Source: Peterkaempfera griseoplana (GTDB lineage: Bacteria; Actinomycetota; Actinomycetes; Streptomycetales; Streptomycetaceae). From it: 34,641 bases of DNA. A program made the position numbers and the translations under genes. Below are positions 2,743-31,908 of this stretch, one piece after another. Below the pieces are notes generated by a model that did not search any database, was not told the DNA's origin, and saw only the letters and a program-made list of their open reading frames with translations. The first letter of the stretch is position 1. Each line of letters opens with the position of its first letter. The stretch is taken from positions 1-34,641 of the forward strand of contig NZ_LIQR01000199.1 of the NCBI RefSeq assembly GCF_001418575.1, read 5' to 3'.

Positions 2743-4290
2743 GTGGGCGCGCCGGGGTACGCCGAGGACCTCGACGAGCTGCTGCGTGTGGTGCGGCGGC
2801 AGGGGTCGCTCGGGGAGGTGCTGCGCTGGCTGGGGCAGCGGATCGGGGCGGAGGCCGCCTGGCTCGGCGGTTCGGGAACGGTCCGGGCCGCGACCCCGGG
2901 GTTCCCCGGCGCGGTGCTCGGTGCCCTGGACGGGCAGCTGGCACGTCTGGCCCAGGGGCGGCTGGCTGCCGCGACGGCGCAGGTCGGCGGGGTGGAGGTA
3001 CGCCTCGAGGCGTTCGCCGGACGGGAGCCGCGGCCGGTGCTGGTGACGGTCAGCCCGGAGGAGCTGACGCGGGAGGCGGCGCAGCTGGCGTCGAGGACCG
3101 GGGGCCTGGTGGAGCTGCTGGGCAGGGCGTCGGAGGCCGACGGCAGCTCGCGCGGGTACGAGCAGAAGGCACGGCAGGTGCGGTTCGCGGTGCTGACCGC
3201 CCTGATGGCGGGGGACACCACCCTCGCCCGGCGGATGACCACTGGTGACGTGCCGCCGCTGCTCTCCGCCGAGAAGGCACGGGTGTACCTGCTGCACTGC
3301 CCTCCGGCCGACCGGGACCGGCTGGTCCGCGCCTACCAGGACCCCTCCGGCTACCACGGCCCGGACCTGATGGTCCACTGCCCGGCCTTCGACGAGCATC
3401 TGATCTGCCCGGTCGCCGAGGACTCCGGCGCGGGCGGGCAGCTCGGCCGCGGCGCGGTGCTGCGGCGTCTGGTCAGGGAGAACGCCGCGTACGCACTGGG
3501 CGTCAGCAGGCCGTACCCGCTCGACGCCACCGCCAGGGCCTACGGTGAGGCCCTGCACGCCCTGGCCGTCGCCCGCAACTCCCCGCAGCGACTGGCGTCC
3601 TACCGCGGCCAGCCCTCACTGGTGCACCTGCTGCCCGGCCGGGCCGCCCTCGCCTGGGCACGCGCCTATGTGGAGCCGCTGGACACCGTCCCGAGGCTCA
3701 CCCGCGACATCACACGGCTGGCTGTGACCTTCCCGCGCTCCGCGGTCGCGCGTCTGCTGCAGATCAGCCGCAACACCGTGGCCGCGCACTGCCGACGGGC
3801 GGAGGCCGCCCTGGGAGTGGACCTCGGTGAGGTCCGGGTCCGCGCGGCGCTCGACCTGGCGCTGTCGCTGGTCGGTGCGCACAGCGGCTCCCTGGTCCCC
3901 GCAGACGACCCCGGGGATCCGGGGGACGCCGGGAAGGCCGTGCCCACCCTGGAGGAGCTGCTCCGCACCCGGCCCGCGAGGGAATGGGCGGAACTGCTGC
4001 TCAAGCCGCTCCGAGACGACGAGCGCCAGCAGCTGTACCTCACCGTGCGGGCCTGGATCGAGGCAGGCGCGGACGCCCAGCGGACCGCCGGACAGCTGGG
4101 CCTGAGCCGCAACACCGTCCGGGCGCACCTGCGAGCGGTCGAAGGCCTGCTCCAGCGGGACCTCCTGACGACCGGTTCGGGCATCCACGACCTCGTCCAC
4201 GCGGTGCGGGCGGTGACTGGGCACCGTGCACAGCCGGACGCCGAAGCTGAGCAGCGTGCACGGTGGCCCGGGCGGTACGCCGGCTTCTAG
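2743..4290 (+). CDS. PucR-like regulator with two HTH segments
   Basis: This 515-aa regulator starts at GTG 2743, preceded by GGGAGG at good spacing; an upstream ATG at 2692 is possible but has poorer context. Residues 1-130 look like a small sensory domain. Residues 140-330 are of unknown fold, with a PucR/CdaR-like central part. A first HTH lies at about 333-360 (ARLLQISRNTVAAHCRRAE) and a second at about 446-473 (GQLGLSRNTVRAHLRAVE). The two share the SRNTV-AH core, indicating an internal duplication of the PucR C-terminal HTH. There are no membrane segments, so it should be a cytosolic DNA-binding protein. It is followed by a clear terminator at 4495-4533. Ligand and targets are unknown. 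Confidence 0.72.
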   Translation: MGAPGYAEDLDELLRVVRRQGSLGEVLRWLGQRIGAEAAWLGGSGTVRAATPGFPGAVLGALDGQLARLAQGRLAAATAQVGGVEVRLEAFAGREPRPVLVTVSPEELTREAAQLASRTGGLVELLGRASEADGSSRGYEQKARQVRFAVLTALMAGDTTLARRMTTGDVPPLLSAEKARVYLLHCPPADRDRLVRAYQDPSGYHGPDLMVHCPAFDEHLICPVAEDSGAGGQLGRGAVLRRLVRENAAYALGVSRPYPLDATARAYGEALHALAVARNSPQRLASYRGQPSLVHLLPGRAALAWARAYVEPLDTVPRLTRDITRLAVTFPRSAVARLLQISRNTVAAHCRRAEAALGVDLGEVRVRAALDLALSLVGAHSGSLVPADDPGDPGDAGKAVPTLEELLRTRPAREWAELLLKPLRDDERQQLYLTVRAWIEAGADAQRTAGQLGLSRNTVRAHLRAVEGLLQRDLLTTGSGIHDLVHAVRAVTGHRAQPDAEAEQRARWPGRYAGF

Positions 4291-4494
4291 CGTTCTTCCT
4301 GGCAGGCACGGGGGAGCTGCCGTAGCAGGCCCGATGCCGAGGAGCCGCGCCGGTGGCTCCCCGGCGTCGGCCGCCACCCCGCGCCGGGAACCCGCCGGGA
4401 CGCCACGGTACGGCCCGTCCACGGCCGATGCCGCCCGCCTCCCTGCCCGCCTCTCCCCTCGGGCTGGGTTGCCCCTGAACCGCAGTTCCCCATG

Positions 4495-29862: not shown

Positions 29863-30681
29863 ATGATCGCGGTGACGGGAGCTACCGGAAACGTCGGGCG
29901 ACCGCTGGTGCGGGCGCTCGCCGAGGCGGGCGAGCAGGTGACGGCCGTGTCGCGCAAGGCGGCGGAGGTGCCGACCGGAGTCCGGTCCCAACAGGCCGAT
30001 CTGACGGAGCCGGAGAGCCTGCGGCCCGCCCTGCGGGGGGCGTCGGCGCTGTTCCTGCTGACACCCCCCGACGTCATGGCGCGCGGCGGCATCGGTGCGG
30101 TGATGGACGTCGTGCGCGAGGCGGGTGTCCGCCGGGTCGTGCTGCTGTCCTCCCAGGGTGTGGGCACCAGCCGGCACCCGTCGGATCTGGAGGACGCCGT
30201 CCGGCGGTCGGGACTGGACTGGACGATGCTGCGGCCCGGCGCCTTCGACTCCAACGCACTCCAGTGGGCCGATGCGATCCGCACCCGGCGGACGGTGGAG
30301 GCGCCGTTCGGCGACGTCGCGCTGCCGGCCGTGGACCCGGCGGACATCGCCGCCGTCGCCGCCGTCGCCCTGCGTGAGCGCGGCCACGAGGGCGGCGTCT
30401 ACACGCTGACCGGCCCCGAGCCGGTCTCTCCCCGGCGGCAGGCGGCAGCGATCGGGGACGCCCTGGGGGAGCCGGTGCGGTTCGTGGAGCTGACCCGCGC
30501 CGAGGCGCGGGACCGGATGCTGGGCTACATGCCCGAGCCGGTGGTGGAGGCCACCCTGGACGTCCTCGGCGTACCCTCCGCCGACGAGCAGCGGGTCAGC
30601 CCCGATGTCGAACGGCTCCTCGGCCGCCCGCCGCGGACCTTCGCCGACTGGGCGGCGCGGAGCGTCGCAGCGTTCAAGTGA
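29863..30681 (+). CDS. NmrA-like NAD(P)-binding protein
   Basis: This 272-aa atypical short-chain dehydrogenase has Rossmann motif VTGATGNVGRPLV (residues 4-16). The 'VRRVVLLSSQGVG' strand, LDWTMLRPGAFDSN and DPADIAAVAAVALRERGHEG are typical NmrA/SDR-a5-like elements. These proteins act as redox sensors or quinone/NAD(P)H oxidoreductases. ATG 29863 is chosen because the Rossmann fold starts there; AGGGGA lies upstream. It is divergent from the MarR-MFS operon (227 bp), so shared control by MarR is possible. A 10-bp hairpin (30694-30717) follows the stop. Confidence 0.87.
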   Translation: MIAVTGATGNVGRPLVRALAEAGEQVTAVSRKAAEVPTGVRSQQADLTEPESLRPALRGASALFLLTPPDVMARGGIGAVMDVVREAGVRRVVLLSSQGVGTSRHPSDLEDAVRRSGLDWTMLRPGAFDSNALQWADAIRTRRTVEAPFGDVALPAVDPADIAAVAAVALRERGHEGGVYTLTGPEPVSPRRQAAAIGDALGEPVRFVELTRAEARDRMLGYMPEPVVEATLDVLGVPSADEQRVSPDVERLLGRPPRTFADWAARSVAAFK

Positions 30682-30693
30682 ACCGTCGGCCCG

Positions 30694-30717
30694 GGGGCGG
30701 CTGGATTCAGCCGCCCC
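30694..30717 (+). terminator. Hairpin terminator of the NmrA-like gene
   Basis: GGGGCGGCTG (30694-30703) pairs with CAGCCGCCCC (30708-30717) around GATT, 12 bp after the stop. Confidence 0.75.
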
Positions 30718-30757
30718 ACCGGGCTCCGTGGGCCGCTGTCCGGTGTCGTCCCCCTTG

Positions 30758-30799
30758 TGACAACGGGGGGTTGACGTGACAACCGGGGGTTGTCATAGT
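30758..30799 (+). promoter_or_regulatory. Promoter overlapped by two abutting 19-bp operators
   Basis: TGACAACCGGGGGTTGTCA (30777-30795) is a perfect 8-bp-arm palindrome. The 19 bp directly before it, TGACAACGGGGGGTTGACG (30758-30776), is the same site with three differences. TTGACG (30771-30776) and CATAGT (30794-30799) are spaced 17 bp apart as -35 and -10. The operators thus occupy the -35 region and the spacer through the -10. The -10 ends 6 nt before the ATG at 30806, predicting a leaderless transcript. Confidence 0.72.
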
Positions 30800-30805
30800 G
30801 GGGCC

Positions 30806-31024
30806 ATGGCGGAGACCAAGGACCTCTCGATGCACCAGCCGGCTTTCGACCGCCTCCGGGAGGTACGTGAGCAGGCAGTCCAGCACGCGCGCCTGGCAAG
30901 GCAGTTCGCAGCAGAACGCCGCGAGCTGATGCAGGCCCTCATCGACCAGGGCGTGTCGCAGGCGGACATCGCCCGGGAGCTGGGAGTGACACGCCAGGCC
31001 ATCCAGAAGATGCTGGCCTGCTAG
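30806..31024 (+). CDS. Small HTH protein, apparently leaderless
   Basis: This 72-aa protein (ATG 30806) has a predicted long N-terminal helix (AFDRLREVREQAVQHARLAR, continuing to about residue 45) rich in charged heptads. A C-terminal helix-turn-helix follows (QADIARELGVTRQAIQKMLAC, about 52-72), resembling sigma-region-4/resolvase-type HTHs. It could dimerise through the helix and bind DNA as an autorepressor at the twin 19-bp palindromes on its own promoter. No Shine-Dalgarno is present. A GTG ten codons upstream falls within the operator and is not preferred. Targets beyond itself are unknown. Confidence 0.75.
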   Translation: MAETKDLSMHQPAFDRLREVREQAVQHARLARQFAAERRELMQALIDQGVSQADIARELGVTRQAIQKMLAC

Positions 31025-31026
31025 AG

Positions 31027-31068
31027 ACCCGGCCACCGCGGCGAAGGCCCGCCGCCTCCCGGCCGGGT
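31027..31068. terminator. Bidirectional hairpin between convergent genes
   Basis: ACCCGGCC (31027-31034) pairs with GGCCGGGT (31061-31068), with an inner GCGGC/GCCGC stem. It lies between the convergent small HTH gene and alpha/beta hydrolase gene and probably terminates both. Confidence 0.6.
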
Positions 31069-31074
31069 GCCCGG

Positions 31075-31908
31075 TCAGCGCCGTGAACCGTGCGCGACGC
31101 GGCTCTGCTCTCCGATCACCTGGTGAAGCCGCTCCGCGGTCGCACGGGGACGGAAGACATATCCGTTGTGCCCGCCCGGGAACGTCCGGCAGGCGGTCCC
31201 CAGCTCCTCGGAGAGCAGCCTGGCGCACCTGTGCGGCCAGGTGTGACCCGAGTTCTCACTGGCACCGGGCACGATGCGGACGGGGGAGTTCCTGAGCGCG
31301 TCCAGATCGAGGACGTGCTCCCGCAACGCCGGCGTGTCGTACGTGAGGAAGTACTCCTGGTTCGCCCGCTGCTCCGGACCCGGGACACGCAGCTCGACAT
31401 CGGGCTCGCGGTCTGTCGGGTCGATGTCGGCGAACTCCCTGAACCTGTCCAGCGCGGAGGAGACACCCTCCGTCCTGAACGCCTCCACGACCCCCCGCAG
31501 ATCCCCGACGGCGACGGTGCGCTGCGGCTCGGGCAGCAGCTGGGTGACGGGCGGTTCGTGCGCCACGACCAGGCCGAGCTGCCCGGGGTGCCGGACGGCG
31601 ACCTCCAGGGCGATCAGGGCTCCGAGGCTGGAGCCGTAGACGAGGGCGGGTCCGGTGGTGAGGGCGGAGAGCAGCCGGGATGCGTCGTCGGCGTGGGTGG
31701 CCAGCGTCAGCCCGGGGGTGTCGGTGGTGCTGCCCGACAGGCCGCGGCGGTCGTAGGTGACGACCGTGTACCTGTCGGAGAGGTGAGTGGCGAGAGCGCG
31801 GTTCACGGAGGCGTCCCCATGGCCTCCGGCGATGAGCAGCAGCAGCGGGCCCGAGCCGCGCACGAAGTGACGCAGCCGCGCGCCGGGTACGTCCAGTACG
31901 GATTCCAT
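31075..31908 (-). CDS. Alpha/beta hydrolase
   Basis: This 277-aa alpha/beta-hydrolase-fold protein starts at ATG 31908. It shows the oxyanion-hole strand (LLLLIAGGHGD), YDRRGLSGST after strand 4, and a nucleophile elbow GSSLGAL (Ser in G-x-S-x-G). A C-terminal GHNGYVFRP holds the likely catalytic His. A candidate acid is in the PGASENSGH region. It is cytosolic with no export signal; the ester, lactone or epoxide substrate is unknown. It is divergent (163 bp) from an XRE/MmyB regulator, which is its likely controller. Confidence 0.88.
   Translation of the reverse strand: MESVLDVPGARLRHFVRGSGPLLLLIAGGHGDASVNRALATHLSDRYTVVTYDRRGLSGSTTDTPGLTLATHADDASRLLSALTTGPALVYGSSLGALIALEVAVRHPGQLGLVVAHEPPVTQLLPEPQRTVAVGDLRGVVEAFRTEGVSSALDRFREFADIDPTDREPDVELRVPGPEQRANQEYFLTYDTPALREHVLDLDALRNSPVRIVPGASENSGHTWPHRCARLLSEELGTACRTFPGGHNGYVFRPRATAERLHQVIGEQSRVAHGSRR

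Follow-up and report, generated by a model that had tools for sequence, protein, structure and literature searches.

In a soil actinomycete, a unit of ~270 bp joins two 19-bp dyads to a gene for a 72-amino-acid helix-turn-helix (HTH) protein, and the dyads supply parts of the promoter from which that gene would be transcribed. Sequence comparisons make it likely that the gene is a solitary, leaderless autorepressor – with its own promoter as the sole strong target that we detected. With operator, promoter, start and regulator all inside ~270 bp, this is among the smallest complete regulatory circuits readable from sequence, and it is conserved down to single bases across actinobacterial families amid changing surroundings.

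Operator and promoter of the 72-amino-acid gene

In the window (the whole stretch of 34,641 nucleotides that was analysed), the two dyads abut exactly, upstream of the gene, at 30758-30795. Feature by feature, the unit reads as follows, with counts referring to the 31 loci defined in the next section.

30758..30776, + strand: dyad 1, TGACAACGGGGGGTTGACG, arms TGACAAC and GTTGACG around a GGGGG centre; 2 of 14 arm positions off; right arm is the source of the -35; kept in 31 of 31 loci
30771..30776, + strand: -35 hexamer TTGACG (promoter scan); TTGAC in 31 of 31 loci
30777..30795, + strand: dyad 2, TGACAACCGGGGGTTGTCA, arms TGACAAC and GTTGTCA around a CGGGG centre; perfect 7+7 arms with a 5-nt centre; kept in 31 of 31 loci
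30794..30799, + strand: -10 hexamer CATAGT (promoter scan), separated from the -35 by 17 nt; second base A and sixth base T in 30 of 31 loci, with spacers of 16-18 nt
30800..30805, + strand: 6-nt stretch GGGGCC from -10 to start, 5-7 nt in 31 of 31 loci; transcript start predicted at or within 1-2 bases of the ATG
30806..31024, + strand: ORF for the 72-amino-acid helix and HTH protein, ATG 6 nt past the -10; dN/dS 0.07-0.23 in 8 pairs

The sequence-only reading had described two back-to-back 19-bp dyads over the -35 region and spacer, and a -10 ending 6 nt before an ATG that lacks a Shine-Dalgarno sequence. This anatomy held, and the leaderless layout recurs in all 31 loci. TTGACG/CATAGT, 17 nt apart, is the single sigma-70-like pair that the promoter scan returned for 30680-31080; dyad 2 fills the interval between the two hexamers and contributes the first two bases of the -10. 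GGGGCC, ahead of ATG 30806, contains no Shine-Dalgarno-like stretch. The arms of the dyads are symmetric and their G-rich centres asymmetric.

Taken by themselves, the palindromes are no more than mildly unusual for one window. These two sites are the window's only matches to the dyad when up to 3 mismatches are allowed, against a mean of 0.44 in shuffled windows, and 8 of 100 shuffles reached two. The perfect dyad occurs once in the 8.24-Mb genome, which at up to 3 mismatches holds 42 dyad places versus 68 for a reversed-pattern control – that is, the motif is not enriched.

Two inverted repeats lie close by. Directly after the stop codon, ACCCGGCC/GGCCGGGT (31027-31034 and 31061-31068) was seen by eye and might act as a terminator lacking a T run; none was listed by the terminator scan. 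A 17-nt imperfect inverted repeat (88%; 30630-30646 and 31039-31055, 392 nt apart) flanks the unit and is probably due to chance in G+C-rich DNA.

Operator and gene are conserved as one unit

The 31 loci comprise the window, 21 usable loci from a genome-contig scan that had found relatives at 30 loci, and a further 9, non-redundant, from same-family genomes. Excluded were L043 (the same as L022, at a contig edge and without upstream DNA), the broken copies L025, L055 and L057, loci with only a general HTH in other proteins (L058-L063 and L027-L033), the duplicates L011, L012, L015, L016 and L026, and the own-genome rows L001, L002 and L006. Identity to the window protein is 46-83% across the set.

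All 31 loci carry both dyads, a -35 in the right arm of dyad 1, the start of a -10 in the right arm of dyad 2 and a 5-7-nt leader. The shared pattern is CAAC-(5-6)-GTTGAC, a short gap and CAAC-(5-6)-GTTGTC, with the final C serving as the first base of a CANNNT -10; single loci deviate by one base in an arm or in the -10. Because it is conserved in 31 of 31 loci, the pair of sites stands well above chance. The -35 is TTGACA in 20 loci, TTGACG in 9, and TTGACC and TTGACT in one each, followed by a spacer of 18 nt (19 loci), 17 nt (11) or 16 nt (1). From -10 to start is 6 nt in 24 of the 31, and the start codon is ATG in 29 and GTG in 2. The exact abutment seen in the window is not general: the distance from one dyad centre to the other is 20 bp in 19 loci, 19 bp in 10 and 18.5 bp in 2. 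Because of one-base differences in dyad spacing from locus to locus, the frame ahead of the ATG is not preserved.

Conservation stops at the edges of the unit. Mean identity between loci is 82% over the first 18 nt of the operator and 30% over the 60 nt upstream of it. When positions -900 to +1100 of the window were compared by BLAST with the 30 other loci (plus strand), all 31 resulting segments overlapped the unit. Twenty-two of them begin between -50 and -47, close to the first base of dyad 1 (-48), and 28 stop between +203 and +228, near the stop codon (+216 to +218). Similarity between loci spans dyad 1 to the stop codon, and the flanks share nothing. What had been called a compact, self-contained circuit from the letters alone is, by these segment bounds, the whole conserved unit.

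Operator and gene also occur together. A search of 394 same-family genomes detected the double-operator pattern in 15, each time at the 72-amino-acid gene and never in a gene-less genome (reversed control, 0). Two genuine carriers gave no match: in G014 the gene is broken, and in G137 the copy begins at a contig end. Three broken copies (L025, L055 and L057) were inspected, and no operator remnant was seen at any of them.

The inner five bases of the centres vary between loci and, within a locus, tend to match from one dyad to the other, direct or inverted. In the 28 loci with 7-nt centres, 110 of 140 positions matched versus 97.7 in shuffled pairings, with 7 of 20,000 shuffles as high in a test that does not control for relatedness. 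This suggests that the operator centre may also be read and that the two dyads may evolve together.

The protein and its nearest known families

As the sequence-only reading had proposed, the 72 residues form a long helix and a terminal HTH. The AlphaFold2 model (pLDDT 94.9) has one helix at residues 8-47 and an HTH of helices 52-59 and 63-71 at the very C terminus, with no helices after it. The dN/dS values listed above indicate purifying selection, and the genome encodes no paralogue of the protein at E below 0.1.

No named regulator family is convincingly matched in Pfam and NCBIfam comparisons, in keeping with the initial failure to recognise one. The nearest profile is phrog_686 – phage small HTH DNA-binding proteins – which aligns almost full-length (E 7.4e-10; residues 13-71 on positions 12-70 of 76, in a collection, PHROGs, without a curated cutoff) and is of similar length. 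Small HTH proteins of actinophages share the overall fold and rank among the best structural matches over the whole length (for example Microbacterium phage ValentiniPuff, TM 0.85/0.81, Foldseek E 0.098), a likeness known by fold alone that does not imply their membership of phrog_686. Unlike phrog_686, the 72-amino-acid family is chromosomal and solitary, with no close relative in 50,697 phage records.

KorA, TrfB and ArdK are small autoregulating plasmid repressors. The protein shares their HTH helix pattern, and KORA-domain chains ranked next after BurrH in a sequence search of the PDB; however, it scores 26.3 bits against the curated KORA (PF16509) cutoff of 26.7, covers only part of that profile (positions 14-50 of 84), and has an HTH that ends the protein. 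The HTH_3/XRE score (PF01381) is 23.5 bits against a curated 23, with only profile positions 1-29 of 55 covered. Fis likewise places a C-terminal HTH after a long helix, and Fis chains appear among the VIA-align matches (Z 5.0, rmsd 2.7, 49 residues), but this Z lies in the range of a common arrangement and the Fis HTH_8 score (PF02954) of 17.8 bits is below the curated cutoff of 22. Among PDB folds there was no Foldseek match at E 0.001 or better and no VIA-align Z above 5.6. None of the NCBIfam models came near its own cutoff, PADLOC gave weak HTH matches only, and a literature search with thin coverage of subscription papers found no description of the family or its operator.

Lambda cI and TetR are autoregulated. 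The 72-amino-acid gene resembles leaderless repressors of this type in encoding a small regulator on a transcript predicted to be leaderless, and differs in having no recognised element, conserved partner or divergent gene to repress. One study links leaderless transcripts in E. coli to regulators of mobile elements and names lambda cI, TetR of Tn1721 and E. coli prophage regulators as leaderless repressors of such elements (PMC4681348).

Distribution and mobility

Of 394 genomes of the same family, 20 gave a protein match: 17 real (E 6.4e-16 or better) and 3 to a general HTH (~1e-4). The usable contig-scan loci come from Streptomyces, Actinacidiphila, Streptacidiphilus, Frankia, Kutzneria, Pseudonocardia, Nocardioides, Actinomadura, Sphaerisporangium and Hamadaea, and from several metagenome bins, one labelled Acidobacteria. 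A profile search of 396 genomes phylum-wide returned a single match at E 1e-8, the genome of the window itself; it scored 14 candidates per genome, and misses are possible.

In a tree with mostly weak support, Frankia and Kutzneria rows fall among Streptomyces rows and one Streptacidiphilus row groups with Sphaerisporangium. Together with presence in 17 of 394 family genomes, this placement suggests horizontal transfer or repeated loss, and the ~270-bp unit of operator and ORF has, to judge from these comparisons, probably spread horizontally among actinobacterial chromosomes. A recent insertion is not supported, because no clean empty site was found in the genomes compared (the window flanks against 41 relatives, and the flanks of two carriers against 35 and 14 genomes of their own genera). 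In one of these two genus comparisons, the only genome with both flanks of the carrier at high identity, G111, has them ~29 kb apart.

We recognised no mobile element around the gene. A home on phages or plasmids was considered and rejected: the protein had no match among 72,556 plasmid or 50,697 phage records. In viral contigs the double-operator pattern occurs at 23 loci, none of which codes for the 72-amino-acid protein; all have a G+C content of 53% or less and, judged by eye, the remaining conserved positions of the operator are missing from them. A G-rich single dyad matched three times in viral contigs, and a profile search there gave 7 loci that match mainly in the HTH. The phage relative L127, used as a query, found no match in the phage records.

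Dyads elsewhere and neighbouring genes

Further copies of the 19-bp site had been expected to reveal a regulon. That expectation was not borne out: at near-perfect match, the 17 gene-bearing genomes yielded no additional operators beyond chance or the sites of another regulator. At up to 1 mismatch they hold 23 forward matches, of which 17 lie at the gene and 6 away from it (none for the reversed control). Three of the 6 represent one type of site that lies, by eye, between LysR-type and quinone-oxidoreductase-like genes; the other three are in G038, G087 and G108. Searched for at up to 2 mismatches, the LysR site type matched in 18 of 61 genomes, 17 of them without the 72-amino-acid gene. These carrier searches covered near-perfect sites only, and weaker sites may lie elsewhere in the genome. 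L110, L111 and L113 show a conserved CGACAACC/GGTTGTC dyad in the LysR/quinone-oxidoreductase intergenic region (~1500-1520), which is frequent in genomes of the family.

All-against-all BLAST of ORFs in 32 loci identified no conserved neighbour beyond a 4-locus group; the larger clusters of neighbour ORFs are frames that overlap the 72-amino-acid gene itself. Thirty neighbours scanned against Pfam are diverse, including reductases, hydrolases, transporters, a tRNA synthetase and methyltransferases. The protein was also considered, and rejected, as the antitoxin of a type II toxin-antitoxin pair: apart from the gene and its overlapping frames, no neighbour family is common to more than 4 of the 32 loci. 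The 4-locus group consists of deep-branching loci in which the gene is closely followed, on its own strand, by a related ORF (L042:1785-2615, L052:3500-4099, L053 ~3185-4303 and L056:3202-3858). By eye this ORF looks like a TIM-barrel glycosidase, and its L042 and L052 versions have no Pfam match at 1e-6.

Proposed autorepression and alternative readings

A dimer of the 72-amino-acid protein, probably paired through its 40-residue helix (8-47), would bind each GACAAC...GTTGTC dyad via the C-terminal HTH. The tandem dyads may allow dimers to bind cooperatively, as the sequence-only reading had proposed. Protein on both dyads would occupy the stretch from the -35 through the spacer into the -10 and so compete with or exclude RNA polymerase; excluding it, the gene would keep its own output low. 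We favour autorepression because bound dyads would exclude RNA polymerase from the -35/-10 region. Consistent with this reading, an operator that overlaps the gene's own promoter and is conserved with the gene was found in 31 of 31 loci and in 15 of 15 double-operator genomes. The -10 is placed for a start at the start codon (5-7 nt) in all 31, and in the window the transcript is predicted to be leaderless, beginning at or near ATG 30806. In S. coelicolor, leaderless transcripts account for ~21% of primary start sites, and -10 motifs read TANNNT (PMC4895711). The fast response that the sequence-only reading had ascribed to leaderless translation does not follow, as leaderless starts are ordinary in this group (PMC4895711), and leaderlessness alone is not evidence of speed. 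The logic of autorepression is ordinary too; what is unusual is the very small size of the unit, its precise bounds, its solitary state and its apparent lack of other targets.

There is no obvious benefit in a repressor for which the only strong target detected is its own gene, and this counts against the autorepressor reading. A second point against it is that a symmetric dimer would have to read centres that are themselves asymmetric. Most known solitary HTH regulators have targets, and it is conceivable, if on balance doubtful, that the gene's own promoter is only the strongest site, that the real regulon lies at weaker or half sites or is reached with a partner, and that autoregulation is ordinary feedback. 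Such a protein would differ from the autorepressor described above only in its role besides self-repression. The restriction of carrier searches to near-perfect sites leaves room for this, as does the downstream ORF of the 4 deep-branching loci (of 31), a possible co-transcribed partner. Against it, neighbours are not conserved, and of the 6 off-gene matches (of 23) in the 17 carriers, 3 are of the LysR type seen in 17 gene-less genomes.

The position of dyad 2, exactly between the -35 and -10, recalls MerR-type operators, which lie in an overlong promoter spacer of 19-20 bp; protein on dyad 2 might then twist the promoter into an active state. We regard auto-activation of this kind as improbable because the spacer here is of normal length – 17 nt in 11 loci, 18 in 19 and 16 in one, with a near-consensus -35 – and dyad 1 covers the -35 too. 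Very improbable, in our estimate, is control of the gene by a different, host-encoded regulator to which the dyads belong. Its half-site type does occur before other genes, at the LysR/quinone-oxidoreductase pair and at the CHASE3-kinase loci described below, but the double operator is absent from all searched gene-less genomes, was not found at broken copies and accompanies the gene in unrelated neighbourhoods across actinobacterial families. Chance palindromes combined with a conventional start upstream, for example at the in-frame GTG 30776 that would give an 82-amino-acid ORF, would fit the 8 of 100 shuffles noted above; conservation in 31 of 31 loci and the unconserved upstream frame refute this explanation, to which we assign next to no likelihood.

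Should binding be confirmed, the unit would offer actinomycete research a minimal autorepressor ready for use, as well as a clear way to test how two neighbouring dimers occupy a single promoter. As no regulon was detected, one may ask what selects for a seemingly self-only repressor.

A second HTH family with the same half-site

A search of 15 carriers for GACAAC-N4..6-GTTGWC returned 23 perfect sites with a 4-nt centre, largely at CHASE3-kinase or response-regulator loci; 19 were inspected in detail, the other four being in L190 and L191. Eight of the 19 precede a different small HTH protein, of 103-126 amino acids or fused to a response regulator. These loci – L192 (1049-1095), L196, L197, L198, L202, L205, L207 and L209 – lie mostly beside a gene resembling a CHASE3 sensor kinase, an assignment confirmed by Pfam for L209 and made by eye for the others. 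In all 8, which were chosen for having the HTH ORF, the right arm of the dyad provides the -35, which a spacer of 17-18 nt separates from a TANNNT -10, and a leader of 6-7 nt follows.

This second family resembles the 72-amino-acid family in its GACAAC/GTTGTC dyad, its -35 in the right arm and its leaderless layout; it differs in having a single dyad with a 4-nt centre, a longer protein and a more constant neighbourhood. In both families the recognition helix opens with (S/T)RQ(A/G), which suggests, by analogy, that a recognition helix of this type may read GTTGTC and indirectly supports the binding proposed above. Exactly these HTHs are aligned by hhalign, but we do not claim homology because the match is weak (E 0.013, probability 3%). 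The two families hint at a wider shared design. More speculatively, and with odds that we place against it, the ~270 bp may be a self-regarding unit with its own promoter as sole strong target, perhaps silencing incoming copies, within a wider, undescribed design whereby small HTH proteins with an (S/T)RQ(A/G) recognition helix would read GACAAC/GTTGTC and have it positioned over the -35 of the leaderless promoter of their own gene.

The four remaining sites form two pairs. In L190 (~1492-1556; G000:C178:26891-26955) and L191 (G208:C5:302620-302684) alike, a TetR-family gene has two GACAAC-N4-GTTGTC dyads at its 3' end, spaced 49 bp apart, and its product carries an extra HTH-like stretch, ISRQAARKRWP, at the C terminus; the two genomes share this arrangement.
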